Shown here one piece after another: positions 1,344 to 17,566 of a DNA stretch of 38,801 nt. The notes beneath the pieces were generated by a model, which searched no databases, was not told where the DNA came from, and saw only the letters and a program-made list of their open reading frames with translations. Source of the DNA: an uncultured beta proteobacterium. Lineage in GTDB: Bacteria; Pseudomonadota; Gammaproteobacteria; Burkholderiales; Casimicrobiaceae. The DNA lies in contig CAIWHR010000589.1 in assembly GCA_903912485.1 (NCBI GenBank), positions 1-38,801 of the forward strand. The letters run 5' to 3'. A program made the position numbers and the translations under genes. Numbering within the stretch: position 1 is the stretch's first letter; every line of letters begins with the position of its first letter.

Positions 1344-4300
1344 TTACGCAAGCTTCGCCTTGCCGCCCACGGTCTGCGCCACCCGCGCCACCGCCGCGCA
1401 CAGATCCTCGACCGTGTTGGGCTTGTAGATGAGCTCGCGGATGCCGGCGGCGGGCGCCCTGGCGCGCAATTCCTCGGTGATGTAGCCCGAAGCCAGCACC
1501 ATCGGCAGGTCGGGGCGCAGTTCCCGCAGCGCCTGCGCCACCTCCAGCCCCGACATCCCCGGCATGCTGTAGTCGGTCACCGCCAGGTCGAACTGGTCGG
1601 GGTCGAGCCGGACCGCCGCCAGCGCCTCGTGCGGGTCGGTGTAGCCGCTCACGCGGAAGCCCTGACGTTCGAGCAGACGCTTCATCAGGAAGATGATCGC
1701 TTCCTCGTCGTCGACGTAGAGCACGTGTTTGCCCTTGCCGTGGACCGGCGCGGCGGCCGCGACGGGCGGCACGACGTCGGCGATCGGCGCCTCGGCCGGC
1801 GGAAAATAGATGCGGAACTCGCTCCCCTCGCCCGGAGTGCTCTTCACCGTCATGCTCGCGCCGTGCGCCTGCACGATGCCGTACACCACGGACAGGCCGA
1901 GGCCGGTTCCCCTGCCCCTCGGCTTGGTCGTGAAGAACGGCTCGAAGATGCGTGCGCGCGTCGCCTCGTCCATGCCCGAGCCGTTGTCGCGCACCGTGAG
2001 GCAGGCGCAGCGGCCCCGGCCCGAGTCGCCGCGCGCCTCGTCGTCGGGTTGATGACGCGCCTCCAGGCGGACCTCGATCACCCCCGGGCGCTCCTGATCC
2101 TCGACCGCGTGCAGCGCGTTGTTGCACAGATTGAGCAGGATCTGCTTGACCTGCGTCGAATCGGCCAGCACCGCCGGCGTATCGCCCGCGCATTCCACGC
2201 TCAGCCTCACCCGCACCGGCAGCGTGGCGCGCAGCAGGCGCTCGGTCTCGACGACCACCAGTGCCAGCGACATCACCGTGCGTTCCAGCTTCTGCCGGCG
2301 GCCAAAGGCAAGGATCTGCTCGACCAGGTCCTTGGCCCTGCGGCTCGCCTTGCCGATCTCGTCCAGGCTTTCCAGCGCCGGGTGACCGGGCCCCACGTCC
2401 TGCCGCGCCAGTTCGACGTTGCCCGTGATCGCCGCCAGCGCGTTGTTGAAATCGTGCGCCACCCCCCCGGCCAGCGTGCCCAGCGCCTCCATCTTCTGCG
2501 ACTCGCGCAACTGCGCTTCCAGCGACGCGCGGGCGGCTTCCGCCTGCGTGCGCTGCTCCTGCGCCTGCCGCATCTCGACCAGCGCCCGATGCGCCTGCTG
2601 CCGCGCGCTCTCGACCAGCGCGTGCGCGGTCGCGTTGTCCAGCGCAATGGCGCCGTAGGCGCACAGCGTGCGGAAGATCGAGCGCTCGCGCTCGCCGTAG
2701 GCATGCGCCTTGATCGACTCGATCGACATCACGCCCAGCAGGCGCTCGCCGATCATCAGCGGCGTGAACAGCAGCGTCCGGTTGACCACGGTCCCCGGAA
2801 TGTGCGTGGGGAGAACGGTGTCGGGTTCGACGGCGATGAAAAGGTCCTGCCGGCTGCGCGCGCAGCGGGCGGTGATCGAATTCGGGTCGTCTATGGGGAT
2901 CTGCGCCGACGGCAGGCGCTGGCCCAGTTCGATGCTGAACACGTCCTTGAGCACCCGGCCGTCGGGCTCGAGCAGGTAGACGGAAAAGGACGTGACGTCG
3001 AACAGCTGGCTCGCGTGCCGGAACAGCGCCGCGAACACTTCGTCGATGTTCAGGCTGGCGGTGATCTCGCGCCCGATCTGACCCAGCGTCTGCAGCGTGG
3101 CGCTGGCTTCCTGCAGCGTCCTGGCACGGCTGGCTTCGGTCGCGGCAGTCTGCCGCTGGTGTTCGGCCTCCGTGTGCACGCGCTCGCTTTCAGCCAGCTG
3201 GCGCTGCTGGCCGGCCTCGACCCGGGCACGCTCGGTTCCCTGCCGCCCCTGCATCGCCATGGCACGGTTGCGCGCCTGTTCGAAGCGCTTGCTGTCGCGG
3301 ACGCCGGCGGCGGCCAACGCATGGTCGTAGGCCAGCCGATGGTCGCCGCAGGCGGCGCAGGCGCTCGCCAGTTCGAACAGCAGTTCGCTGCGCGGCGTGT
3401 AGCCGCTGATGTTCGCCGCGAGCGCCATCGCCTGATTCAGGTAGTGCAGCGTCGCGCTGGCGGCGACCATCCCGTCGGGCGGCGGCAGCGGGTAGGTCCG
3501 GTGGAGCTCGGCGTAGACGCGAAGCGTGTCGATCTGCTCGTCCGGACTGCCTTCCGCCGTCGCCAGTTCCAGCGCCGCGGCCAGCCTGGCTCGCGCCTCT
3601 TCCGGCCGCGCCAGCCGGCACAGGGCGTGGGCTTGCCCGCGCCAGCACCGCGACAGGGGAATCCGCCCGCCGGGCGTCCGCGCACGCTCCTCGGCCTGAC
3701 CGAAATACTCGAGCGCGGCCGCAGGATCCCCGACGTCGAGCGCAAGGTCGCCCAGATAGCACAGCGTGATCGCGTAGCCGTTGGAGTCCTTCAGCGCCGC
3801 CCTCACGGCCAGCGCCTCGCGCAGCGCCACCTCGGACTCCGCGTGGCGACCGAGCAGGCGCAGGACGTTGCCGGTCTGCATCAGCGAATTGCCGAGCACG
3901 CTCGGCCAGCCCGCGCCGCGGGCCAGCGTCAGGGCGATTTCATCCCATTCCAGCGCGGTATCGAGGTCCCCCAGGATCGCGAAGCTGTCGGCAGCGTTGC
4001 TCGCCGTCAGGACGGCCTGCCGGATCTGGCCGCTCTCCACCGCCGCATGATGCGCTTCGAGAAAATGCCGGGCGGCGTTACCGAAACCGCCGGCGGGGCT
4101 GGCCGCGATCGCACGGGCGCAGGCGGCCCAGGCGGTCACCGCGGCATCGTCGCTCGCGGCCGGGCCGGGCGGCCACACCAGCCGGCTGGCGGCGGCACCG
4201 GGGTCGCCGAAGGCCGCGTAGAGCAGGCTGCGCGCCGTGGCGGCGTCGACCCGCACCGGATCGCCTGCTGCCCGGTAATCCTCGATGGCCGACGTCACGC

Positions 4301-4694
4301 ATTCGTCGCGGCGGCGCACGTTGCCGCGATCGCCGACGATGGAAGCCAGCAGCCACTTCCCGTCGCCCGCGCCAATGCGGTCGCCCAGGCTATCGAACGC
4401 CGCCAGCGCCGCGTCCGCGTGATGCTCGGCCGCGTCCAGGTCGGCGAAAAGCCAGGCCACCTCGCCCCTCACCAGCCGCAGCCGCGCAAGGCCGCGCCGG
4501 CGCTCGGTGGTGTCGACACCGGCGCCGCCGAGCAGGACCTCGGCTTCGTCCGCCAGCACGAGCGAACGGCCGCAATCGCGCTGGCGCAGCTGCCACGCCA
4601 ACGCGATCAACGGCACGAGCCTGTCCGCGCCTTCGGCCCGCAACAGCGCGGCCTCGAGCGCGGCAAGCTCCTTGTTCGGTGCAAACAGCTCCAT
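1344..4694 (-). CDS. Hybrid sensor histidine kinase: TPR-like N-terminus, GAF, HisKA/HATPase, receiver domain
   Basis: TPR-like repeats; GAF-like segment (ITASLNIDEVFAALFRHASQLFDVTSFSVYLL); H-box GVAHDFNNALAAITGNVE; N/G boxes (LLNLCNNALHAV, RDNGSGMDE, GRGTGLGLSVVYGIVQ); receiver (VLYVDDEEAIIFLMKRLLERQG, LAVTDYSMPGMSGLE). No evident transmembrane segment. Confidence 0.9.
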   Translation of the reverse strand: MELFAPNKELAALEAALLRAEGADRLVPLIALAWQLRQRDCGRSLVLADEAEVLLGGAGVDTTERRRGLARLRLVRGEVAWLFADLDAAEHHADAALAAFDSLGDRIGAGDGKWLLASIVGDRGNVRRRDECVTSAIEDYRAAGDPVRVDAATARSLLYAAFGDPGAAASRLVWPPGPAASDDAAVTAWAACARAIAASPAGGFGNAARHFLEAHHAAVESGQIRQAVLTASNAADSFAILGDLDTALEWDEIALTLARGAGWPSVLGNSLMQTGNVLRLLGRHAESEVALREALAVRAALKDSNGYAITLCYLGDLALDVGDPAAALEYFGQAEERARTPGGRIPLSRCWRGQAHALCRLARPEEARARLAAALELATAEGSPDEQIDTLRVYAELHRTYPLPPPDGMVAASATLHYLNQAMALAANISGYTPRSELLFELASACAACGDHRLAYDHALAAAGVRDSKRFEQARNRAMAMQGRQGTERARVEAGQQRQLAESERVHTEAEHQRQTAATEASRARTLQEASATLQTLGQIGREITASLNIDEVFAALFRHASQLFDVTSFSVYLLEPDGRVLKDVFSIELGQRLPSAQIPIDDPNSITARCARSRQDLFIAVEPDTVLPTHIPGTVVNRTLLFTPLMIGERLLGVMSIESIKAHAYGERERSIFRTLCAYGAIALDNATAHALVESARQQAHRALVEMRQAQEQRTQAEAARASLEAQLRESQKMEALGTLAGGVAHDFNNALAAITGNVELARQDVGPGHPALESLDEIGKASRRAKDLVEQILAFGRRQKLERTVMSLALVVVETERLLRATLPVRVRLSVECAGDTPAVLADSTQVKQILLNLCNNALHAVEDQERPGVIEVRLEARHQPDDEARGDSGRGRCACLTVRDNGSGMDEATRARIFEPFFTTKPRGRGTGLGLSVVYGIVQAHGASMTVKSTPGEGSEFRIYFPPAEAPIADVVPPVAAAAPVHGKGKHVLYVDDEEAIIFLMKRLLERQGFRVSGYTDPHEALAAVRLDPDQFDLAVTDYSMPGMSGLEVAQALRELRPDLPMVLASGYITEELRARAPAAGIRELIYKPNTVEDLCAAVARVAQTVGGKAKLA

Positions 4695-4980: not shown

Positions 4981-5271
4981 ATGGGTATTTCCGCAAGCGA
5001 CGTCATTCCCCTTTCGCACGCCCGAGCGAACTTCTCTGAACTGGCTGAAGACGTCAAGGGCGGTGCCGAGAAGATCATTACCAAGAGCGGCGAGAGCTAC
5101 ATCGCCCTTATCGACGTCAACCGTCCGGACTACTATCACCAGCTGGAGGGTGAGCGCATTCATCTGCTGCTGATCGGCGAGGCTTCCCAGGGGCTCGACG
5201 ACGTTGCCGCTGCCAAGGTGAACGACGCCCGCAGCGCCATTACCGCCCTCAAGCGTCGGCGCAGTGCGTAA
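4981..5271 (+). CDS. Type II toxin-antitoxin antitoxin, Phd/YefM family
   Basis: MGISASDVIPLSHARANFSELAEDVKGGAEKIITKSGESYIALIDVNRPDYY has the Phd/YefM pattern (S..AR.NFSEL...V...E....TK.G...ALI). Confidence 0.8.
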   Translation: MGISASDVIPLSHARANFSELAEDVKGGAEKIITKSGESYIALIDVNRPDYYHQLEGERIHLLLIGEASQGLDDVAAAKVNDARSAITALKRRRSA

Positions 5272-5493
5272 TTGGTCGAGATCGCCGGGTTCGCAGAACG
5301 GTATTCAAGGGCTGTTGCCGTGCCAGATCGAACAAACCCTCGATGGCCTGCTCAGCTTTTCGGCTTCACGCCCGCGCTCGACCTCTACCGTCGACTGTGT
5401 CGCCACTATTGGGACATTGACCCCCGTAGCGACGGCGTCTTACGTCGATGCTTACCGAACGACTTGGGATACGGACGATGAACAGCAATAGGT

Positions 5494-5847
5494 ATGGCGA
5501 GAAAACCTGTCGTCAAGTTCACGGCCCATTTCGAGCGCAACCTCGAAGGCATTGAACCTTTCCGGGCCGACGTGAAAGCACCGCAAGCCTTCGACCGCTT
5601 GCTGGATGAACTGCTCGACACGGTGATTCCCAACCTTGAGCGCTTCCCGGAAATGGGTAGACCATTCTTGGCCCGCCTATCGCATTCCGTTGAGACCACC
5701 AATGCGCTGGCAGCGCTGCGCGCTATCGGCGCTGACTCCGGACGCAGAAGCGCTACGCGAGTACATACTCAAGGACTACTTGACGCTCTACGCCAGACCA
5801 ACGCCGTGGTGTTATCCGTCATACAGGTCACAAACGACAAGAGATGA
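5494..5847 (+). pseudogene. RelE/ParE-family toxin-like gene with compensating internal frameshifts
   Basis: Frame 1 gives MARKPVVKFTAHFERNLEGIEPFRADVKAPQAFDRLLDELLDTVIPNLERFPEMGRPFLA (ParE-like). The expected segment DAEALREYILKDYLTLYA is in frame 2 at about 5729-5785. Frame 1 resumes with QTNAVVLSVIQVTNDKR. The stop overlaps the next ATG (ATGA at 5844-5847). Confidence 0.6.
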
Positions 5848-8822
5848 ACTACAGTCCGCACCAACTAGCGTATTTCGCGCATCAATTGACCCGTCGTGCC
5901 GCATCCAATTCTATGGACCGCATGGCCGGTGCACTGCTGGATGCACAAGTCGACTTGAACCCGCACCAGATCGACGCAGCACTGTTCGCCACGAGCAACC
6001 CGCTGTCCAAGGGTGCCATCCTCGCCGATGAAGTCGGTCTCGGAAAGACCATTGAGGCAGGTTTGTTGATCGCGCAGAAATGGGCCGAGCGCAAGCGCCG
6101 CATCCTGGTCATCACGCCGGCCAACCTGCGCAAGCAGTGGCATCAGGAACTGGCAGACAAGTTCGGTATCGCCGCCAGCCTCCTTGAAGCCAAGTCCTAC
6201 CGGCATGCCATCAAGGACGGCGCCACCAACCCGTTTGACCTCGCAGGCAATAGCGCCACCGTACTTATCTGCTCCTACCAATTCGCGGCACGCAAAGCCA
6301 AGGACGTGCAGTCGGTGCCGTGGGACTTGGTGGTGATCGACGAAGCGCACCGTCTGCGCAACGTCTATAAGCCGGAGAACAAGACCGCCCGCATCCTGCG
6401 TGATGCGCTCATGCTGCCGCACAAAGTCTTGCTGACGGCAACGCCGCTCCAGAATTCCTTGCTGGAACTCTACGGACTGGTCAGCTTTGTCGACGAGCGC
6501 GTATTCGGTGATCTGGATAGCTTTCGCGCCCAATTCGGGCAACTCAAGGACGCAGCCAGTTTCGATGCGCTGAAGAACCGCATTGCGCCGATCTGCAAGC
6601 GCACGCTGCGCCGACAGGTCGAGGCCTACGTCAAATACACCCGGCGCATTCCGATGCTGCAAGAGTTCGTCCCCGATGTGGACGAAACCAAGCTCTACAA
6701 CTACGTTTCAGAATTCCTGCAACGGCCATCGTTATACGCACTGCCCAATAGTCAGCGGCAACTGATTACCCTTGTCCTGCGCAAGCTGCTGGCGTCTTCC
6801 ACGTTCGCCATCGCCGGGGCGCTGGAAACCCTCATCAAGCGGCTAGGCCAGACCCTCGACGAAAAGGTGGCCAGCACTGATCTTGCCGACCTTGCCGACG
6901 AACTCGACCAGGACTACGAAGCCCTCGACGAACTGGCTGACGAGCTGGATGCCGTCGCCGACGGCAGCACCAAGGTATCAACCGCTGCGGAAATCACCGC
7001 CATCCGAGCCGAAGTCGGCGAACTCGAATCATTCCGCAATCTGGCCATTTCCATCACGGAGAACGCCAAGGGCACCGCGTTGCTGCAAGCTCTCAATGTC
7101 GCGTTCAAAAAGCTGGACGAACTCGGTGCGGCGAAGAAGGCGATTGTCTTTACCGAATCCCGCCGCACGCAGGAATACCTGCTGAAGCTGCTGGCAGGCA
7201 CCGAGCATGGCCCCGGCGTGGTGCTCTTCAACGGCAGCAACACCGATGCCAAGGCCAAGGAAATCTACGCCGAGTGGATCGCCCGACATACCGGCACCGA
7301 CCGGGTATCCGGCTCGCGCACTGCCGACACCCGCGCCGCGCTGGTCGATTACTTCCGTGAGCAGGGCAGCATCATGATCGCCACCGAGGCCGGCGCGGAG
7401 GGTATCAACCTTCAGTTCTGCTCGATGGTCATCAACTATGACCTGCCGTGGAACCCGCAAAGGATCGAACAGCGTATCGGGCGTTGCCACCGCTACGGCC
7501 AGAAGCACGATGTTGTTGTCGTCAACTTCCTGAATCGGGACAACGACGCCGACCGGCGCGTCTATGAACTGCTGGCGCAGAAGTTCCAGCTATTCGATGG
7601 CGTGTTCGGGGCCAGCGATGAAGTGCTGGGGGCCGTGGAGTCCGGCGTCGATTTCGAGCGCCGCATCGCCGAGATATACCAAACCTGCCGGCACCCCGAG
7701 GCCATTCATACCGCCTTCGAGCAACTACAACTTGATCTAGCCGGCGAGATTTCCGACGCCATGCTCAATGCCCGCAAGGCGCTGCTGGAAAACTTCGACG
7801 AGGACGTACAAGAGCGGCTGCGCCTGCGCAACATGGATGCCCGCGCCTCCCTCGGCAGGCTGGAACGCCTGTTGATACGCTTTACCCGCGCCGCGCTGGG
7901 CGGGCATGCCCGCTTTGACAAGGACGACACCGGCTTCCTGCTGACCAGCTTGCCCGAAGGTGTGCAGGACGAAGCCGCGACGGCGATCCCCTTGGGCCGT
8001 TACGAACTGCCGCGCCGGAGCGAAGAAGCGCACATTTACCGGATGGCGCATCCCTTGGCGCAAGGATTGATCGACTATGCCCAGCGTGTGCCGCTGACCC
8101 CCAGCAGGCTAGTACTCGACTACGATGCCTACGGCACCAAAGTTTCCGTCATCGAAGCCTTGCGGGGCCAGTTTGGCACGCTGATGGTTCAGCATCTGCG
8201 CATTCACTCGCTTGGCACCACCGAAGAGCATCTGCTGGCTGCTGCCATTGACGCCGATGGAAACGTTCTTGATGCCGACGTAACCGACCGCCTGCTTGGC
8301 ATGCCCGGTCATACCGTTCCGTTGCCGCGTATCGACGGTGCGCCCGTTCAGCAATCGCTCTCGGACGACCTCGCCCCGGCGCAACAGAACATGCTCGATT
8401 TCGCCGCCGCCAATGTGCCGATTCCGCCAGCGTTACAGCAGCAGATCGACCAGCAAAAGGCACTGGTGATTACCGACCTTGAGTCGCGCAATCTGAGCTT
8501 CTTCTCGCAGGAAACGGAAAAGCTTGATGCGTGGGCTGATGACCTGAAGGTCGGCCTTGAGCGCGAGATCAAAGACCTTGACCGACAAATCAAGGAAGCT
8601 CGCACCAAGAGCAAGGGGGCTGCAACCCTGGCCGACAAGCTGCAAGCGCAAAAGGAACAACGCGACCTCGAAGGGCAGCGCGACAAGAAGCGGCGCGAGC
8701 TATTTGACCGGCAGGATCAGATTCAGGCTCGGCGAGACAGCCTGATCGACGAACTGGAGCGGCAATTGGGGCAGCAAGTTACGACTACCCGGCTATTTGC
8801 CGTGGAATGGCAGGTGCGGTGA
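5844..8822 (+). CDS. SNF2-family (RapA/HepA-like) DEAH helicase/ATPase
   Basis: Walker A DEVGLGKTIEAGLL; Walker B VIDEAHRLRN; TATPLQNSLLELY; C-terminal motifs ATEAGAEGINLQFCSMVINYDLPWNPQRIEQRIGRCHRYGQ. C-terminus is a coiled coil; no nuclease motif recognised. Confidence 0.92.
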   Translation: MNYSPHQLAYFAHQLTRRAASNSMDRMAGALLDAQVDLNPHQIDAALFATSNPLSKGAILADEVGLGKTIEAGLLIAQKWAERKRRILVITPANLRKQWHQELADKFGIAASLLEAKSYRHAIKDGATNPFDLAGNSATVLICSYQFAARKAKDVQSVPWDLVVIDEAHRLRNVYKPENKTARILRDALMLPHKVLLTATPLQNSLLELYGLVSFVDERVFGDLDSFRAQFGQLKDAASFDALKNRIAPICKRTLRRQVEAYVKYTRRIPMLQEFVPDVDETKLYNYVSEFLQRPSLYALPNSQRQLITLVLRKLLASSTFAIAGALETLIKRLGQTLDEKVASTDLADLADELDQDYEALDELADELDAVADGSTKVSTAAEITAIRAEVGELESFRNLAISITENAKGTALLQALNVAFKKLDELGAAKKAIVFTESRRTQEYLLKLLAGTEHGPGVVLFNGSNTDAKAKEIYAEWIARHTGTDRVSGSRTADTRAALVDYFREQGSIMIATEAGAEGINLQFCSMVINYDLPWNPQRIEQRIGRCHRYGQKHDVVVVNFLNRDNDADRRVYELLAQKFQLFDGVFGASDEVLGAVESGVDFERRIAEIYQTCRHPEAIHTAFEQLQLDLAGEISDAMLNARKALLENFDEDVQERLRLRNMDARASLGRLERLLIRFTRAALGGHARFDKDDTGFLLTSLPEGVQDEAATAIPLGRYELPRRSEEAHIYRMAHPLAQGLIDYAQRVPLTPSRLVLDYDAYGTKVSVIEALRGQFGTLMVQHLRIHSLGTTEEHLLAAAIDADGNVLDADVTDRLLGMPGHTVPLPRIDGAPVQQSLSDDLAPAQQNMLDFAAANVPIPPALQQQIDQQKALVITDLESRNLSFFSQETEKLDAWADDLKVGLEREIKDLDRQIKEARTKSKGAATLADKLQAQKEQRDLEGQRDKKRRELFDRQDQIQARRDSLIDELERQLGQQVTTTRLFAVEWQVR

Positions 8823-8830
8823 TGGCAACA

Positions 8831-8854
8831 TCGCCTTGCCGGCGTCGGCAAAGC
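8831..8854. repeat. Imperfect inverted repeat CGCCTTGCC-GGCGTC-GGCAAAGCG (hairpin A)
   Basis: 9-nt arms with one mismatch and a 6-nt loop. Core TTGCCGGCG..GGCAA is shared with hairpin C at 8944-8975. Confidence 0.55.
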
Positions 8855-8859
8855 GATCA

Positions 8860-8883
8860 AATTGTGGCGAATTCGCCACAATT
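8860..8883. repeat. Perfect 24-nt palindrome AATTGTGGCGAATTCGCCACAATT
   Basis: Reverse complement checked by hand; it equals itself over 8860-8883. Confidence 0.9.
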
Positions 8884-8943
8884 AAAGGTCATGTGAGGCG
8901 GGATGGTCTCAGTATCAGCGCCAAGGAACAGGTAGGAATACAG

Positions 8944-8975
8944 CGATCATTTTGCCGGCGATGGCAAAATGATCG
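8944..8975. repeat. Inverted repeat CGATCATTTTGCC-GGCGAT-GGCAAAATGATCG (hairpin C)
   Basis: Perfect 13-nt arms with a 6-nt loop, in the gap between the helicase and AAA ATPase genes. No following T-tract, so not a canonical terminator. Confidence 0.9.
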
Positions 8976-9030
8976 TCGATTGGCAGAAGCTGTTATTGAA
9001 TGGATTTGCTCACTGCCGTAATGCATAGGA

Positions 9031-10029
9031 TTGGAGGCCATCATGGCTAACGGAAAACTACTTAGACAGCTAATTCGGTCCGGATTGGACGGAGACATAG
9101 AAACTTTCAAAGCGGCGTCTGAGACAGTGATCGCCGAAGAGCGTGGCAAGAATCATCACCTCTTGGCGAATGATCTTGAAAAGTTGCTGTACGGCACTCA
9201 ATCGGGCGCTCCGGTGTCGCAGTCGCACATGAAACTTGCCTCGGTGATGCCGACCAACAAGGACAGCGGACTTTCGCTACTTGAACTTCGGCCAGTAGTT
9301 AGAGAGCAACGGGATATCGTGCTATCGGATGGCACGCATTCAAGTCTTGATGAAATCATCATGGAGCACAATCGCGCCGACACGTTGCGTTCATTCGGTC
9401 TCCAGCCTGCGAGCAAGTTGCTTTTTTGCGGCCCTCCGGGTTGTGGCAAGACACTTGCGGCAGAAGTTATTGCCAGTGCTCTTTCAATGCCATTGATTGT
9501 GGTCCGTCTGGATTCAGTGATTTCCTCGTTTTTGGGGGAAACCGCATCGAATCTGCGGAAGGTGTTTGACTACATATCCAAATATCCTAGCGTTGCCCTG
9601 TTTGACGAATTTGATGCACTGGCGAAGGATCGAGGCGATAGCGCGGACCATGGTGAGCTAAAGCGTTCAGTCAACGCAGTTCTTCAAATGATGGACGGCT
9701 ACAGGGGGCAGAGCATTCTTATCGCGACAACGAACTACGAAACTCTGCTCGATAAAGCGGTCTGGCGCAGGTTCGACGAGGTCATGCAGTTCGATTTGCC
9801 GACAATCGAACAGATCAAGCGCCTGCTAAGCATCAAGCTTTCTGGCGTCCGGCGGAATTTCGAGCCAGACGACACCAAAATCGCCTCCCTGTTCAAGGGC
9901 ATGTCGCACGCAGATATTGAGCGCGTCCTGCGGCGTTCCGTAAAGGAAATGGTCCTTTCAGGTAAAGAGTTCCTCGAAAAGCAGCAGATTGACTCTGGCC
10001 TTGCGCGTGAGCGTCGAGTTAGCAACTAA
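9031..10029 (+). CDS. AAA+ ATPase (FtsH/SpoVK-like), IetA-like defence component
   Basis: Walker A LLFCGPPGCGKTLAAEVIA; Walker B VALFDEFDALAKDR; sensor ILIATTNYETLLDKAVWRRFDEV. Immediately followed by a subtilase, the IetAS arrangement. Confidence 0.88.
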   Translation: MEAIMANGKLLRQLIRSGLDGDIETFKAASETVIAEERGKNHHLLANDLEKLLYGTQSGAPVSQSHMKLASVMPTNKDSGLSLLELRPVVREQRDIVLSDGTHSSLDEIIMEHNRADTLRSFGLQPASKLLFCGPPGCGKTLAAEVIASALSMPLIVVRLDSVISSFLGETASNLRKVFDYISKYPSVALFDEFDALAKDRGDSADHGELKRSVNAVLQMMDGYRGQSILIATTNYETLLDKAVWRRFDEVMQFDLPTIEQIKRLLSIKLSGVRRNFEPDDTKIASLFKGMSHADIERVLRRSVKEMVLSGKEFLEKQQIDSGLARERRVSN

Positions 10030-10050
10030 CCGCCCGGAGTTGATCTGCTC

Positions 10051-12399
10051 ATGCCTTACGAACACATAAAAATTAGCCGGGATGAACCGATAGTCCCCCG
10101 CCTCACTCGCAAGCTGGGTCCGCAGCCAAGGTTTACCGTTGATGAAGCCAAGGCTTACGGGGTAGGGCTTAAACGTAGCCTTGAGGGCGTCAAAGCCTCG
10201 ATAGCTCAATCGGAAATACGCGGATACGACGACCGGCTGCTATTCAAGCTAAACCTTCAAGAAGGCGTATTGCCGCCCGAGTTAGAAGCGATAGAAGGGC
10301 TGACTATCGTCAGTCAAGAAGAAAAATCTGTATTGCTGGCGTTTGCGACGGCGCAAGGTTTGGCGGAATTTGAAGCCAGATTGACCTCGTTGAGCACAGA
10401 CGGGACTGTAACCAGAAAAGACATATTTTTTGCCATACATGGCTTTGATTATTGGACACCTGAGAACAGGAGAGGCACTGCACTTAGGGAGCACGGCCTT
10501 CCGCAGCGTGCGACTTTTCTATTGGATGTAGAGCTTTGGCCGCTGGAGAATCCGCAGCAACGAACGCAACTACAGCAGTCTTTTGTCGCTTGGGCCATTG
10601 AACAAGGCATAGAGATCACCGATAGCCTTATCTATCCGTCCTTGGTCATGGTTCGCGTGCGGACGGCAGCAAACGCCGTTGATCTTATTTTGAATCACCG
10701 GGATGTTCGCACGGTCGACTTGCCGCCCCGAGTCGGCCTAGACGTTAATCTGCTCACGGCGGACATTAACCAATTCCCGGTAGTCGCTCCGCCACCACAG
10801 GACGCACCCCGCATCGGCGTACTCGATAGCGGGATTACTGCGGGTCATCCGCTGTTGGGGGCGGCAGTCGGCGATGCACAAGGATACGTCTTGCCAGGTC
10901 GCGATGCCGCAGACAATCCAGTGAACGGGCACGGGACATTCGTCGCCGGGATTGCGTTGTACGGGGACGTTGCGGCCAATATCACTGCCGGTCAATTCAT
11001 ACCTGACCTTCAGCTTTTCTCCGGTCGCGTATTTGCAGATGATGATGCCGACCAGACCAAATTTGTAGAGAAGTCCGTTGATGAGGCAGTCCGCTACTTT
11101 CAGAGCACCTATCAATGTCGGGTTTTTAACCTGAGCTACGGAGATCGAAACAAAGTTTATGACGGAAAGCATGTCCGTGGGCTGGCTTATGTGCTGGACA
11201 AACTGACCCGCGAATTAGGCGTTCTCTTTATTGTGCCGACCGGCAATCTGGCGTTGGCAGAACTCCCTGCTAACCCGGTGGCGGATTACCCCACTTACCT
11301 TCTGACGCAATCCTCTCGTTTAATTGATCCGGCTACCGCGCTGAATGCACTGACTGTCGGGGGCCTCGCAACGCTAGACGCGACTTTTGATGCGCGCCGC
11401 AATGAACATACCTTTGAAGATGTACCGATAGCCCAACAGGACCAGCCGTCGCCAATAACTCGCTCCGGTTTTTCAGTGGGTGCTGCGATCAAACCGGATT
11501 TGGTCGAAGCAGCAGGCAACGTTGCGTTTGTGCCAAGTCGCCGCGCGACTAGAACGCAGGGCCTCGGCATCGTTTCGTTAAATTCAGGTTTTGCTTTGGG
11601 GCGGCCATTTCGAGAAGAGATTGGAACCAGTTTCGCTGCCCCACGAATTGCCCATTTGGCAGCGAAGCTTGCGCACCGATTTCCAGACAACTCCATCAAC
11701 CTGACGAGAGCTATCTTGGCGAGTCACGCCAGTTGGCCCGCGGCGAGTGTGAATTTGCTGAATCACGCTAGGAATGCGCAAGGCAGAGAGAATCTGCTTC
11801 GGCTGCTTGGTTACGGTCAGGTTTTTTCGGAGGCAGTATTCGAGTCGATTGAAAATGAGGTCACGCTCTACGCGGAGGATCGGATAGGCAACAGCCGCAC
11901 CCAGTTCTATGAGCTTCCGGTTCCCGAAGAGTTTTGGGGTACAGGGAGGCGGGATCGAAACGTCACTGTATCGCTTGCCTATAGCCCAGTTGTGCGAACT
12001 ACGCGCCTCGACTACCGGCACACGAAACTATCGTTCACGCTGGTGAAGGGCGAATCCCTCGAAGTGGTTGCCGATGCCTTCACGCGAGGGCGAGCGACGA
12101 CGGACGCGCTGAAGGAAGTTTCAGCCGGGCAAACGATAGGCAAAGAAACGAGAAAGCCCGGGACGCTACAAAGCTCCTCTTGGACCTTTAAAGATGTGTC
12201 CCGAGGGGCACCCAAATTATTCGCTGTCGTTACACGGCAGGACGCGGCATGGTCAGCTCAACAAGAGGTTGACGAAGCCTATGCGCTAGTCGTCGTCATC
12301 AGAGATAGAGCAAACGAAACAGTAAATCTTTACGAACGGGTATCAGCCATCGTGCAAGCCCGCGTGAGAGAGCGCGAACGCGCACGGGTTCGTACATAG
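10051..12399 (+). CDS. S8 family (subtilisin-like) serine protease, IetS-like defence component
   Basis: Catalytic triad motifs present: IGVLDSGI (Asp codon 10825), NGHGTFVAG (His codon 10930), IGTSFAAPRIAH (Ser codon 11629). Pairs with the upstream AAA ATPase (21-nt gap). Confidence 0.88.
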   Translation: MPYEHIKISRDEPIVPRLTRKLGPQPRFTVDEAKAYGVGLKRSLEGVKASIAQSEIRGYDDRLLFKLNLQEGVLPPELEAIEGLTIVSQEEKSVLLAFATAQGLAEFEARLTSLSTDGTVTRKDIFFAIHGFDYWTPENRRGTALREHGLPQRATFLLDVELWPLENPQQRTQLQQSFVAWAIEQGIEITDSLIYPSLVMVRVRTAANAVDLILNHRDVRTVDLPPRVGLDVNLLTADINQFPVVAPPPQDAPRIGVLDSGITAGHPLLGAAVGDAQGYVLPGRDAADNPVNGHGTFVAGIALYGDVAANITAGQFIPDLQLFSGRVFADDDADQTKFVEKSVDEAVRYFQSTYQCRVFNLSYGDRNKVYDGKHVRGLAYVLDKLTRELGVLFIVPTGNLALAELPANPVADYPTYLLTQSSRLIDPATALNALTVGGLATLDATFDARRNEHTFEDVPIAQQDQPSPITRSGFSVGAAIKPDLVEAAGNVAFVPSRRATRTQGLGIVSLNSGFALGRPFREEIGTSFAAPRIAHLAAKLAHRFPDNSINLTRAILASHASWPAASVNLLNHARNAQGRENLLRLLGYGQVFSEAVFESIENEVTLYAEDRIGNSRTQFYELPVPEEFWGTGRRDRNVTVSLAYSPVVRTTRLDYRHTKLSFTLVKGESLEVVADAFTRGRATTDALKEVSAGQTIGKETRKPGTLQSSSWTFKDVSRGAPKLFAVVTRQDAAWSAQQEVDEAYALVVVIRDRANETVNLYERVSAIVQARVRERERARVRT

Positions 12400-12421
12400 G
12401 CATCAAATAGAATATGAGAAT

Positions 12422-14119
12422 ATGACGAACAGACAAAAACTAGAACTGACATGGATCGGCAAAGATGCGCGCCCGAAGCTGGAGCCGCGCATTTTGTTGG
12501 GCGATCCAGAGAAAAGCCATCACGCGAAGCACCGTGTCACCAGTGCCGACTTTTTCGATAACCAGCTTATCTTCGGTGACAACCTGCTGGCATTGAAGGC
12601 CTTGGAGCAGGAATTCGCTGGCAAGGTGAAGTGCGTATTCATCGACCCGCCGTACAACACCGGCAGCGCATTTACCCACTACGACGATGGCGTTGAACAT
12701 TCGATCTGGTTGTCATTGATTCGGAATCGATTGGAGATCATTCGTCGCCTGATGTCCGAAGAGGCCTCGTTGTGGATCACTATCGACGACAATGAATGCC
12801 ATTACCTCAAAGTGGTATGCGATGAGGTTTTCGGACGGGCGAACTTTATGGCAAACATGGTTTGGGAGAAACGTACATCTCGGGAAAACCGCCGTGTGTT
12901 CTCCTTCAACCATGACCATTTACTCGTGTATGCAAAGTGCAAGCCTAAGTTCGAGAAGGTCAGAAACCCTCTGGGCTTAAACCAAGAAGTTTTATCTCGA
13001 TATAAAAACCCGGACAACGACCCGCGTGGCCCGTGGCAGTCAGTTTCAGCGAATGCACAGGCGGGGCACGCAACCCCAAGCCAGTTCTATTCGTTGACGC
13101 TTCCTTCTGGTCGGGATGTTGATCCGCCAAAAGGGCGTTGCTGGCTTTATACAAAAAACCGAATGGAGCAAGAAATTGCAGCTGGCAACATTTGGTTTGG
13201 GGCTGGAGGTGACAATGCGCCTCGCGTAAAAAAGTTTCTCAGTGACAGCGAGGACAAGGGACTTACGCCGGAAACTATTTGGACAGCCAGCGAGGCAGGT
13301 ACAAACGACGATGCAAAGAAGGCGATGCTGCAACTGTTGGCGGACACTCCCGTTTTCGATAATCCGAAGCCCGAGGCACTACTGGAGCGTGTAATTCACA
13401 TAGCCACTAACCCCGGCGACCTCGTTCTTGATTCCTTCGCTGGTTCCGGCACCACCGGCGCTGTTGCCCACAAAATGGGCCGCCGCTGGATCATGATCGA
13501 GTTGGGCGAGCACTGCCACACGCACATCATTCCGCGCCTGAGAAAGGTCATCGACGGCGAGGACCAAGGCGGCATCAGCCAGGCAGTGAACTGGAAGGGC
13601 GGCGGAGGCTTCCGCTACTACCGCCTCGCGCCCAGCCTGTTGCAGCAAGACCGCTGGGGCCAGTGGGTCATCAACAAGGAATACAACGCCGAGATGCTGG
13701 CGGCGGCGATCTGCAAGCTGGAGGGCTTCACCTACGCGCCCAGCGACGCGCACTACTGGCAGCACGGCACAAGCACCGAAAACGACTTCATCTACGTGAC
13801 TACGCAAAGCCTGACACCGGAGCAGTTGCAAGCAATTAGCGATGAAGTCGGCGAAGGGCGCAGCCTGCTGGTCTGCTGTTCGGCATTCCGGGGCGATGCG
13901 GATCGTTACCCCAATCTCACCGTCAAGAAGATTCCCAAGATGGTCTTGTCCCGCTGCGAGTGGGGGCACGACGATTACAGCCTGAACGTCGAGAATCTGC
14001 CGATGGCGTCGCCGCTCGAGCCGGCTGTCACTGCGAGTGGGCCTGCGTTGAACGTGCGTAAGGGCGCAAAGGCTGTCGACGCAGGTCAAGCAGGCCTCTT
14101 TGACGGGGGCGGCGAATGA
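12422..14119 (+). CDS. Site-specific DNA (adenine-N6) methyltransferase, beta class, type III Mod-like
   Basis: Motif IV FIDPPYNTGSAF (Asp codon 12644) precedes motif I LDSFAGSGTTGAVA (Asp codon 13430). This order defines beta-class MTases such as type III Mod. Confidence 0.92.
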   Translation: MTNRQKLELTWIGKDARPKLEPRILLGDPEKSHHAKHRVTSADFFDNQLIFGDNLLALKALEQEFAGKVKCVFIDPPYNTGSAFTHYDDGVEHSIWLSLIRNRLEIIRRLMSEEASLWITIDDNECHYLKVVCDEVFGRANFMANMVWEKRTSRENRRVFSFNHDHLLVYAKCKPKFEKVRNPLGLNQEVLSRYKNPDNDPRGPWQSVSANAQAGHATPSQFYSLTLPSGRDVDPPKGRCWLYTKNRMEQEIAAGNIWFGAGGDNAPRVKKFLSDSEDKGLTPETIWTASEAGTNDDAKKAMLQLLADTPVFDNPKPEALLERVIHIATNPGDLVLDSFAGSGTTGAVAHKMGRRWIMIELGEHCHTHIIPRLRKVIDGEDQGGISQAVNWKGGGGFRYYRLAPSLLQQDRWGQWVINKEYNAEMLAAAICKLEGFTYAPSDAHYWQHGTSTENDFIYVTTQSLTPEQLQAISDEVGEGRSLLVCCSAFRGDADRYPNLTVKKIPKMVLSRCEWGHDDYSLNVENLPMASPLEPAVTASGPALNVRKGAKAVDAGQAGLFDGGGE

Positions 14120-14631
14120 GCAAGAAAATCATCATCATCGCCGGCCCGAATGGTGCAGGGAAAACCACCTTCGCCCGTGCCTTCCTGCCTGAAGAGGCGC
14201 AGTGCCCGCACTTCATCAACGCCGATCTGATTGCCGCCGGTTTGTCGCCGTTCGCGCCGGAGGCGGCGGCAGTGAAGGCGGGCCGCTGGATGTTGCAGGA
14301 GATCGCGGCTTGCGCGGCCAAGGGCGAGAGCTTCGCCTTTGAGACCACGTTGTCGGGCGTGGCGTATCTGCGCCATATCCGCGAATGGCAGCAGGCCGGT
14401 TACCACGTCAGCCTGTTTTTCCTTGGCCTGCCCTCCGCCGAGGTGGCGATTGCCCGCGTGGCCGAGCGGGTGCAGCAGGGCGGCCACAACATCCCGGAAC
14501 CGGTTATTCGCCGGCGCTTTGCCGCCGGTAAGGCCAACTTCGAGCGCGACTACCGTGCGGCGGTGGATGCCTGGGCGCTATATGACAACTCGGGCGACGA
14601 ACCCGTAATGATTGAGTGGGGAGAGCGATGA
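14116..14631 (+). CDS. Zeta-toxin/COG4185-like P-loop ATPase or kinase
   Basis: KKIIIIAGPNGAGKTTFARAFLPEE (Walker A), FINADLIAAGLSPF, FAFETTLSG. ATG overlaps the Mod stop (ATGA). Confidence 0.8.
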   Translation: MSKKIIIIAGPNGAGKTTFARAFLPEEAQCPHFINADLIAAGLSPFAPEAAAVKAGRWMLQEIAACAAKGESFAFETTLSGVAYLRHIREWQQAGYHVSLFFLGLPSAEVAIARVAERVQQGGHNIPEPVIRRRFAAGKANFERDYRAAVDAWALYDNSGDEPVMIEWGER

Positions 14632-14816
14632 TGACCCGGCATGAACTCGGCAGGGCGAAGGACCAAGATCTCGTGACCTCGATGGCGGCGATGAAGCGGG
14701 CGGCAGCGATGGCGCGCAAGGCAGCGGTGCAGACCGACACGGCGATTGTCGTGGTGCAAGGAGAGAAGATCGTCCGGGTGACTGCCGACGACCTCCGAAA
14801 GAAGGCTGGCGCATGA
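14628..14816 (+). CDS. Small protein (about 62 aa) paired with the zeta-like protein; possible antitoxin
   Basis: MMTRHELGRAKDQDLVTSMAAMKRAAAMARKAAVQTDTAIVVVQGEKIVRVTADDLRKKAGA. Start overlaps the upstream stop, stop overlaps the downstream ATG. The listed GTG start at 14616 is less likely. Confidence 0.6.
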   Translation: MMTRHELGRAKDQDLVTSMAAMKRAAAMARKAAVQTDTAIVVVQGEKIVRVTADDLRKKAGA

Positions 14817-17566
14817 GTCTGGAAAACATCGTTCGCTCGGTCAGCGGCCGCCTGAGTCTGCGCGAGCCACAAGCCGAAAGTCTGCGCCGCCTGCATTGGG
14901 CGGTCGATCAGGTGCCCGCGTTGCGCGACGCGAAGGCGCGGTCGCCGGAAGAATTGAAGGCGATGCAGGATGCGCTGACAGGACAGTTTCCAACACTGGC
15001 CGACTTCGAGCGCGACTTCCCGTCCCTGTGCTTCGCTCTGGCGACCGGCGTCGGCAAGACGCGCTTGATGGGTGCGTTCATCAGCTATCTGCATGCGGCC
15101 TACGGCTACAAGCATTTTTTCGTGCTGGCGCCGAACCTGACCATCTACGACAAGCTGATCGGCGATTTTTCGCCGAACTCGCCCAAGTACGTATTCAAGG
15201 GCATTGCTGAATTCGCCAGCACACCGCCCGAGGTGATTACGGGTGACAACTACGAGCAGCGCGGCAGCTTGAGTCTGCTGGGCGGCATCGAGGTCAATAT
15301 ATTCAACATCTCGAAGATCAACTCCGAGGTGCGCGGCGGCAAGTCGCCGAAAATCAAGCGGCTGTCCGAATACCTTGGGCAAAGCTACTTCGAGTATCTG
15401 GCCGGACTGGATGATCTGGTCCTCATCATGGACGAGTCGCACCGCTACCGGGCGAGCGCGGGCATTCGGTCCCTGAACGAGTTGCGCCCTCTGTTGGGCC
15501 TTGAGCTGACAGCAACGCCCTTCGTCGAAGGTGCTGGCGGCAAGACCACGCCGTTCAAGAACGTGGTGATGGATTACCCGCTGGCGCGTGCCATCGAGGA
15601 CGGTTTCGTCAAGGAGCCTGCCGTTGTCACGCAGCAGAACTTCGACCCGAGCGCCCATAGCGCCGGTGCGCTGGAAACCATCAAGCTGCAAGACGGCGTG
15701 CGGGTGCATGAGGAAACCAAAGTCCATTTGCTGACCTATGCGCAGCAGACCGGCGAAAAGCTGGTAAAGCCCTTCATGCTGGTCATCGCACGCGACACCA
15801 CGCACGCCGCCGCGTTGATGGCGAACATCGAATCCGATGCTTTTTTCGCTGGCCGTTACAAGGGCAAGGTCATTCAGGTCGATTCGAGCCGTTCCGGTGC
15901 CGAGGAAGAGGAAATGATCCGGCGCTTGCTGGCGGTGGAAAGCTACGACGAGCCGACCGAGATCGTGATTCACGTGAACATGCTGAAAGAAGGCTGGGAC
16001 GTGACCAATCTCTACACCATCGTTCCGCTGCGTGCCGCCAATGCCCGCACGCTGATTGAGCAGTCGATCGGTCGCGGCCTGCGTTTGCCCTATGGCCGCA
16101 AAACTGGCGTTGACGTGGTGGATCGGCTGAACATCATCGCCCACGACAAGTTTCAGGAGGTCATCGACGAGGCGGGGCGCGGCGATTCGCCGATCCGAAT
16201 GCAGGCCTTGGTGCTGACGCCGGATACTGGCAGTGGCAGCAGCCTGAAGAGCATTTCGGTGCAGCCCACGGCCAATGCGATGTTGGGGACGCTGACGACT
16301 GGCACACAGCAAGTGCCCGGTGCCAATGCATGCACCACGCAATATGGCACCTCCGCGCCGACAACCGTGTTCAAGACCGATGAACAGCGGCAGATTGCCC
16401 AAGTCGCCATGGACGTGATCGCCGAGATAAGCCGCGAGCGCCAGGATGGACAGCCCCTTGTCGCCAGTACCCAAGCCCTGACACAGGCCAGCATCCAGCA
16501 GCAGATTACCCAGCGGGTGCAGGAACGCATGTTGCCCAAGCAGGGAGACTTGCTCGGAGTGATGGTAAATGCGGGACCATCCCCGGTGGCCGACATTGTG
16601 CAAAGAACGGTGGCGGTGCTGGTCGAGCACACGATTGACATTCCGCGTATCTCGGTCGTGCCGAAAGGCCCGGTGAAGAGCGGCTACAAGCTGTTCAAGC
16701 TGGACCTTTCGAAGATGAACTTCCAGCCGCAGGACATGGCGCTGGTCGGCCAAGGCCTGAAAACCGGCAAGCAGGTGCTGTACGGACAATCGTCGACCGT
16801 GCTGGAATCGCGGCTGGAAAACTACATCGTCCGCGAACTCATCAACTATGACGACGTGTCCTACGACGAGCACGCCGAGTTGATCTACGAACTCTCGGGG
16901 CAAGCCGTCGCACACTTCAAGACCTACCTGAAAGCCGACGACGAACTGCACAACATCCTCGGCAACTACGGCAAGACCATTGCCGACAACATCCATCTGC
17001 AACTCGCGCTGCACTACTACGAGGACATTTCGGAATCGGAGGTCCTCGTCAGTCAAGGCTTCACGCCGCTCAAGCACTGCGCCTTTACCGCCGTGGGCGA
17101 CATCCTGCCGCTGCATCGGCCTCCCGACGAGAAGGGCAAGATCGCGCAGTACGTCTATGGCGGGTTTGGCAAATGCGCTTATCCGGTGCAGAAGTTTCAT
17201 TCCGACACCGAGCGCGTTCTCGCCTGCGTGCTGGAGCGCGACGCGCTGCGCTGGTTCCGACCGGTGGCCGGGCAGTTCAATATCTACTACCGGTCCGGCG
17301 CCAACCAACCCGAGTACGTGCCGGACTTCGTTGCCGCGACTGCCGACCACAACCTGATTATCGAGACCAAAGCGGCCAAGGACATGGAGGCCAGCGACGT
17401 GAAGGCCAAAGCCGACGCAGCAGCCACGTGGTGCAAGAACGCCAGCGAGTATTCGCAGGCCCAAGGCGGGAAACCGTGGAAGTACCTGCTGGTGCCACAT
17501 GACGCGGTGTCCCATAACGCGACAGTGTCCGCGCTGGCAGGCACGTACCTGGTCGCTTCGGCGTAA
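14813..17566 (+). CDS. Type III restriction Res-like DEAD/DEAH helicase with C-terminal PD-ExK nuclease motif
   Basis: FALATGVGKTRLMGAFISYLH (Walker A), LVLIMDESHRYRA (Walker B-like), NMLKEGWDVTNLYTIVPLRAANARTLIEQSIGRGLRLP, C-terminal YVPDFVAATADHNLIIETKAAKD (PD...ExK). Confidence 0.9.
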   Translation: MSLENIVRSVSGRLSLREPQAESLRRLHWAVDQVPALRDAKARSPEELKAMQDALTGQFPTLADFERDFPSLCFALATGVGKTRLMGAFISYLHAAYGYKHFFVLAPNLTIYDKLIGDFSPNSPKYVFKGIAEFASTPPEVITGDNYEQRGSLSLLGGIEVNIFNISKINSEVRGGKSPKIKRLSEYLGQSYFEYLAGLDDLVLIMDESHRYRASAGIRSLNELRPLLGLELTATPFVEGAGGKTTPFKNVVMDYPLARAIEDGFVKEPAVVTQQNFDPSAHSAGALETIKLQDGVRVHEETKVHLLTYAQQTGEKLVKPFMLVIARDTTHAAALMANIESDAFFAGRYKGKVIQVDSSRSGAEEEEMIRRLLAVESYDEPTEIVIHVNMLKEGWDVTNLYTIVPLRAANARTLIEQSIGRGLRLPYGRKTGVDVVDRLNIIAHDKFQEVIDEAGRGDSPIRMQALVLTPDTGSGSSLKSISVQPTANAMLGTLTTGTQQVPGANACTTQYGTSAPTTVFKTDEQRQIAQVAMDVIAEISRERQDGQPLVASTQALTQASIQQQITQRVQERMLPKQGDLLGVMVNAGPSPVADIVQRTVAVLVEHTIDIPRISVVPKGPVKSGYKLFKLDLSKMNFQPQDMALVGQGLKTGKQVLYGQSSTVLESRLENYIVRELINYDDVSYDEHAELIYELSGQAVAHFKTYLKADDELHNILGNYGKTIADNIHLQLALHYYEDISESEVLVSQGFTPLKHCAFTAVGDILPLHRPPDEKGKIAQYVYGGFGKCAYPVQKFHSDTERVLACVLERDALRWFRPVAGQFNIYYRSGANQPEYVPDFVAATADHNLIIETKAAKDMEASDVKAKADAAATWCKNASEYSQAQGGKPWKYLLVPHDAVSHNATVSALAGTYLVASA

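Follow-up and report, generated by a model that had tools for sequence, protein, structure and literature searches.

We analyzed a 38,801-nt stretch of DNA from an uncultured beta proteobacterium of the Casimicrobiaceae (contig CAIWHR010000589.1; this whole stretch is called “the window” below) that carries a compact operon in which the genes of the AAA+ ATPase/subtilase pair IetAS lie among those of a type III-like restriction-modification (RM) system. Our best explanation, which we hold with a probability of about 0.68, is a horizontally acquired and diversifying RM operon with a core of SNF2-type helicase, Mod methyltransferase, and Res restriction subunit, an IetAS cassette between helicase and Mod, and a cassette with a zeta-like kinase between Mod and Res. 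As part of this joint explanation, the IetAS cassette would share the operon and its spread without being a mandatory subunit, and the operon would resemble a carrier with an interchangeable bay for backup immunity more than a single new machine.

The operon (5844-17566) is encoded entirely on the plus strand, in the order SNF2 (RapA-like) helicase, IetA, IetS, type III Mod, zeta-like kinase, a small protein of 62-66 aa, and type III Res. An open reading frame check of the window agreed throughout with what an earlier note on this sequence had given, that is, the named plus-strand genes, ATGA overlaps at 5844, 14116, 14628, and 14813, gaps of 21 nt between ietA and ietS (10030-10050) and 22 nt between ietS and mod (12400-12421), and two large gaps (5272-5493 and 8823-9030). 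Pfam and PADLOC also bore out the families that it had named (SNF2 helicase, AAA/subtilase as IetAS, type III Mod/Res, and zeta-like). The GC content of the operon is 52-65% compared to ~69-76% in its flanks, and the operon is bounded by the gene of a hybrid histidine kinase (1344-4694) and by ribE/ribD-like genes (read from translation), all of them on the minus strand. This drop in GC content and the flanking gene setting make it look like an insert gained by horizontal transfer.

Mod and Res both carry the signatures expected of a type III RM system. In Mod, DPPY at position 75 precedes FAGSGTT at 339, which is the order of beta-class N6 methyltransferases with a target recognition domain between these motifs, and the protein matches the solved type III Mod 6k0w as well as the Mod of EcoP15I. 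Res, encoded downstream of mod, combines a superfamily 2 (SF2) motor (TGVGKT at 78, MDESH at 206) with a PD-(D/E)XK nuclease (PD at 837-838, E851-x-K853), and both the motor motifs and PD...ExK are kept in all aligned relatives covering these positions. The helicase matches Pfam PF00176 (3e-34) and a DrmD-like PADLOC profile (682 bits), and RapA is the best match to its predicted fold over most of its length (mean predicted local distance difference test [pLDDT] score 74; template modeling score ~0.5). IetA, with Walker A GPPGCGKT at 134 and a Walker B-type ALFDEFDA at 189, is directly followed by the S8 subtilase IetS, whose residues D259, H294, N399, and S527 (including the D/H/S triad) are kept in 44/44 relatives. 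IetS is predicted to fold as a subtilisin that has a region before it at the N-terminus and a beta-rich domain at the C-terminus (pLDDT 83), and fold searches with it returned ordinary subtilases only. This IetS belongs to the PADLOC PDLC02198 subfamily, and both proteins score far below the NCBIfam equivalog cut-offs (IteA, 257 vs 510 bits; IteS, 116.5 vs 900 bits); such scores point to a divergent subfamily, which need not be functionally equivalent to the pair that has been tested.

The conserved unit is helicase-Mod-Res, with a slot between helicase and Mod that is filled by IetAS in some loci and by various other modules, or nothing, in others. In an unselected sample of 399 genomes of the window’s phylum, Pseudomonadota, we found the helicase in 18 genomes (19 loci) and Mod in 21, each besides the window. 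A DNA methyltransferase gene lies downstream in all 16 helicase loci that are not cut by a contig end, mostly followed by Res; at one of them (L116), a gene of 597 aa that matches Mod in part is best read as the methyltransferase. IetS matches were present in 9 of these genomes, never on the contig with the Mod hit (0/21 Mod-bearing genomes with IetS detected there), and IetAS is therefore a rare occupant of this slot. Elsewhere, the slot holds AIPR/AbiU (L105, L110, L111), RhuM with AIPR (L113), a DSR2-like SIR2 protein (L104), GmrSD/HEC-06 (L102), SMC/LmuB-like proteins (L028, L103), PDC-S06 (L029), HEC-01A (L030), Schlafen-AlbA/RecG-C (L116), HerA (L053, L054), SIR2-HerA next to IetAS (L036), or an Abi-family gene on a Salmonella plasmid (L134), and it is empty in others. 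Four of the empty operons have a 4-nt overlap between the helicase and mod genes (L107 and L130, whose Mods are more distant, as well as L119 and L120), so that cargo interrupts a coupled pair. The second slot, between Mod and Res, contains zeta-like genes (with or without the small gene, orf66), YhcG, PDDEXK_3, DUF262, or nothing.

Exchange at the first slot can be seen between operons of Pigmentiphaga (L075) and Solimonas (L041), which are 97.4% identical from upstream through hel-ietA-ietS while a 1.8-kb AIPR gene precedes mod only in Solimonas. In the same set of operons, the alignment breaks down over ~500 nt in the central part of mod, between sides that are 86-98% identical, a pattern that fits a swap of the target recognition domain and thus of specificity.

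A genome-wide scan with an IetS alignment yielded 46 loci, onto which we mapped the proteins of the window. The order hel-ietA-ietS-(0-1 genes)-mod-res recurs in Thauera (L039), Extensimonas (L040), Solimonas, Plasticicumulans (L044), and Pigmentiphaga, five genera that represent one mobile lineage, to which the cases in Polaromonas and the window are more distant. An uncultured gammaproteobacterium (L046) shows the same order, cut after mod, as does Polaromonas (L053) with more interruptions and a broken ietS. Because this order is shared with other genera and the operon contrasts in GC content with its flanks, the arrangement is more than chance. Among 18 loci with IetA of at least 69% identity (leaving out the window and L023), a type III Mod is encoded downstream in 12. 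The other six comprise one with remnants of Mod and Res (L072), one with type I HsdR (L042), two that are cut soon after ietS (L037, L052), and two with no RM gene seen nearby (L048, L079). An IetS tree of 42 rows requires 7 changes of the type III context, of which supported branches force at least 5, compared to a mean of 13.1 after shuffling; the supported clade of the window’s IetS (19 rows) contains 13 rows in type III context, 2 in type I context, and 4 without RM. With about 7 context changes on this tree, IetAS was probably recruited, or lost, repeatedly.

More distant IetAS pairs lie among type I RM genes (L043, L051, L055, L059, L149, L150; e.g., HsdM-IetA-IetS-...-HsdR), particularly in Magnetococcales and Competibacteraceae, and the first four of these are placed inside HsdM/HsdS/HsdR operons. 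Others are found beside an MmeI-like enzyme (L071, L076) or an OLD/UvrD pair (L067-L070), and relatives with no RM gene seen nearby include L063 and L074 besides the two already named. The co-occurrence in the same order by which the earlier note proposed to check its reading was found across several genera; the modules also assort separately. In a decayed version (L025/L060), IetAS is intact, whereas the helicase is reduced to part of its C-terminus and Mod to part of its N-terminus, with zeta-like and orf66 genes coming next; this suggests that cassettes outlive the RM core. At L067-L070 and L077, IetAS adjoins an OLD-TOPRIM plus UvrD (Gabija-like) pair, and a near-identical element is present in Idiomarina, Providencia, Alteromonas, and Marinagarivorans.

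Several observations weigh against our explanation. Many of the IetAS-bearing type III loci represent one mobile lineage, with several of the 12 being near-copies of one element (87-98% identical DNA over long stretches), so that the independent cases would number only about 5-8. The window’s close IetS clade is rare, with no member beyond the window in the 399 sampled genomes. The helicase is absent from IetAS-Mod loci of Acidithiobacillus (L038), Nitrosovibrio (L049), and genome G136 (L023), all of which have ietAS-mod(-res), so its membership of the core is common and not universal. Finally, the target and trigger of this IetS are assumed by analogy to the published IetAS pair.

From the intact catalytic signatures, the RapA-like helicase fold, and the subtilisin-like IetS, we infer an active type III-like RM system with IetAS as a second layer. 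Mod would mark one strand of a short target, and Res, guided by Mod, would translocate and cut unmarked phage DNA, while the RapA-like helicase may remodel or clear protein-bound DNA for the RM complex. IetA and IetS would form a separate, AAA+-controlled cytoplasmic protease that may serve as a backup effector, probably abortive, once a phage escapes the RM core. We know of no trigger described for IetAS to date, and its triggering by RM failure now becomes a directly testable question.

Because IetAS has probably entered both type III and type I RM operons more than once, a different, PrrC-like model stays alive. Here, IetAS would be wired to the RM core as PrrC is to EcoprrI: the Mod/Res/helicase complex would keep it inactive, and a phage anti-restriction protein that disables this complex would set it free as the death switch of the same system. 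The stable gene order and tight spacing are in line with such a guard, and the same slot in relative L029 holds an AAA_13 (PrrC/RloC-type ATPase) protein, PDC-S06. We nevertheless consider it unlikely because IetAS relatives exist with no RM gene seen nearby, the helicase-Mod-Res core often comes without IetAS, no shared interaction domain was found, and embedded systems elsewhere can work alone, such as TgvAB in type I RM (PMC11411939). We also regard it as unlikely that the RM complex with its RapA-like helicase directly controls the AAA+/subtilase pair in a restriction-gated proteolytic abortive-infection circuit, built by repeated IetAS recruitment, in which failure or inhibition of restriction switches on the protease.

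An ordinary defense-island juxtaposition, i.e., three unrelated systems that became neighbors without functional or selective linkage, would account for the island-like GC content and for the absence of IetAS from the sampled Mod loci, and it is quite improbable given that IetAS sits within the operon, co-directionally, at the same position in several lineages and only 14-22 nt from mod in the window, L046, and L075. Least probable is the layered system proposed by the earlier note, taken as an obligate one in which helicase/methylation sensing drives the IetAS protease and all genes are needed, since, despite the co-directional, near-gapless operon and its recurrent order, the core usually lacks IetAS (having other cargo or none), IetAS relatives also occur apart from the core (inside operons of type I RM or where no RM gene was seen close by), operons that are 97% identical differ by the gain or loss of AIPR next to IetAS, and the toxin gene of the upstream toxin-antitoxin (TA) pair is broken.

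Embedding of one defense system in another is already established, and the operon with its IetAS cassette is best read as a new variant of “defense embedded in defense.” TgvAB (PMC11411939) and DarTG2 in the RptR island (PMC12255303) are complete second systems in type I RM operons, whereas the host operon in the window is type III-like and the effector an AAA+/protease pair; backup effectors have also been described in BREX (PMC12839542). The window pair resembles known IetAS (Gao et al. 2020; PADLOC) in its adjacent AAA+ ATPase and S8 subtilase genes with intact catalytic residues and differs in its divergent IetS subfamily and its embedding. The operon shares with type III RM of the EcoP15I kind a Mod in which DPPY precedes the S-adenosylmethionine motif, a Res that joins an SF2 motor to a PD-(D/E)XK nuclease at its C-terminus, and the adjacency of the two genes. 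It differs by an additional RapA-like helicase encoded upstream, by cargo slots on both sides of mod, and by a Res that is only distantly similar to EcoP15I Res (2e-5). A RapA-like SNF2 helicase paired with a DNA methyltransferase is also shared with DISARM (DrmD), BREX (BrxHII), and Dpd (DpdE), yet the operon lacks drmB/C, pglZ, and brxC, and its restriction gene is a type III Res. The link to DISARM drawn by the earlier note is not supported, and membership was rejected: no operon gene matches drmB or drmC, the sole drmA and drmD matches are the SNF2 helicase itself, and this helicase stays below the NCBIfam DrmD cut-off (690 vs 950 bits). Hma (PADLOC; Payne et al. 2021, PMC8565338) likewise is a helicase-methylase operon with embedded defense genes, but the third core gene of the operon studied here is Res instead of the HmaC ATPase and the embedded module is IetAS; membership was rejected because HmaB and HmaC (DUF499) are not among the matches listed and HmaA reaches only 160 bits. 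As far as its citations in PMC11411939 and PMC12255303 tell, a 2024 preprint by Payne et al. presents Hma-embedded candidates, and homologs of two of them, HEC-01A and HEC-06, occupy the slot in relatives of the window. Our literature search, with preprints and most subscription journals outside it, returned no paper describing a helicase-Mod-Res operon with IetAS.

These results point to the helicase-Mod-Res operon as a hotspot for exchangeable backup effectors, and they place IetAS in a genomic setting, namely within type III and type I RM operons. The helicase-Mod slot is also a place to look for new defense genes, such as the 359 aa protein in L031 (5034-6113, minus strand), a candidate by its embedding that has no Pfam or PADLOC match.

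Table 1. Features of the operon and its upstream flank in the window.
Feature	Position	Strand	Basis or remark
Phd/YefM-family antitoxin	4981..5271	+	Pfam PF02604 1.1e-6; flanking remnant, outside operon proper
RelE/ParE-family toxin gene, frame-broken	5494..5847	+	C-terminal half in other frame, end missing; Pfam ParE 0.033
SNF2/RapA-like helicase-translocase, 992 aa, RM core gene 1	5844..8822	+	Pfam SNF2-rel_dom, Helicase_C
Intergenic stretch with palindrome and inverted repeat; possible regulatory site of cassette	8823..9030	.	Sequence
IetA, AAA+ ATPase	9031..10029	+	PADLOC IetA 343 bits; Walker motifs
IetS, S8 subtilase	10051..12399	+	PADLOC IetS 942 bits; D259, H294, N399, S527
Mod, type III DNA methyltransferase	12422..14119	+	Pfam N6_N4_Mtase 7e-46; PADLOC MTase_III 738 bits
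Zeta-like P-loop kinase, optional Mod-Res cargo	14116..14631	+	Pfam Zeta_toxin 2.6e-11
Small protein, 62 aa from ATG 14628 (alternative GTG 14616)	14616..14816	+	Overlaps zeta-like and Res
Res, type III restriction subunit with SF2 motor and, at C-terminus, PD-(D/E)XK nuclease	14813..17566	+	Pfam ResIII 8e-21; PADLOC REase_III 662 bits

Three other loci encode relatives of the zeta-like kinase next to Mod or to what remains of it (85%, 71%, and, for an interrupted gene, 73-89% identity). An epsilon/zeta or PezAT system would include a recognized epsilon or PezA antitoxin; here, the kinase has only the downstream, unclassified protein of 62-66 aa, a possible partner that matches no Pfam family above cut-off and has tblastn relatives in L025/L060, L029, and L049.

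Upstream of the operon, the Phd antitoxin gene is intact (68% identity to Phd of Azoarcus/Burkholderia TA pairs). The adjoining toxin is 56% identical to RelE/ParE of Azoarcus up to residue 93, the following segment lies in a different frame, and the end is missing. Both reading frames of the TA pair that the earlier note had seen are thus present, without the intact toxin gene of a type II (Phd/ParE) TA system. Neither gene was found in the related loci onto which we mapped the window’s proteins; by its frame-broken toxin gene and this absence from relatives, the pair is placed outside the operon system, and the proposed role of TA modules as guards was rejected as unsupported.

The stretch between helicase and ietA contains a perfect 24-bp palindrome, AATTGTGGCGAATTCGCCACAATT, at 8860-8883, a 13-bp inverted repeat with a 6-nt loop (8944-8975), and a 23-nt imperfect direct repeat. 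It had no match in E. coli genomes, and scans for promoters and terminators found no more signals than in shuffled sequences. We rejected such palindromes as conserved cassette boundaries, given that related loci had no match except for copies of the window itself. The core palindrome sequence occurs in one IMG/VR contig, whose genes match no window or cargo protein. At L050, a 30-bp perfect palindrome upstream of ietA shares the center CGAATTCG with the palindrome of the window. Helicase-Mod-Res operons with other cargo or none (L130, L131, L132, L134) are also carried by plasmids, some of them conjugative, and an E. coli record that bears the label of a 1-Mb plasmid has such an operon in its pyrE-rph-yicC region.

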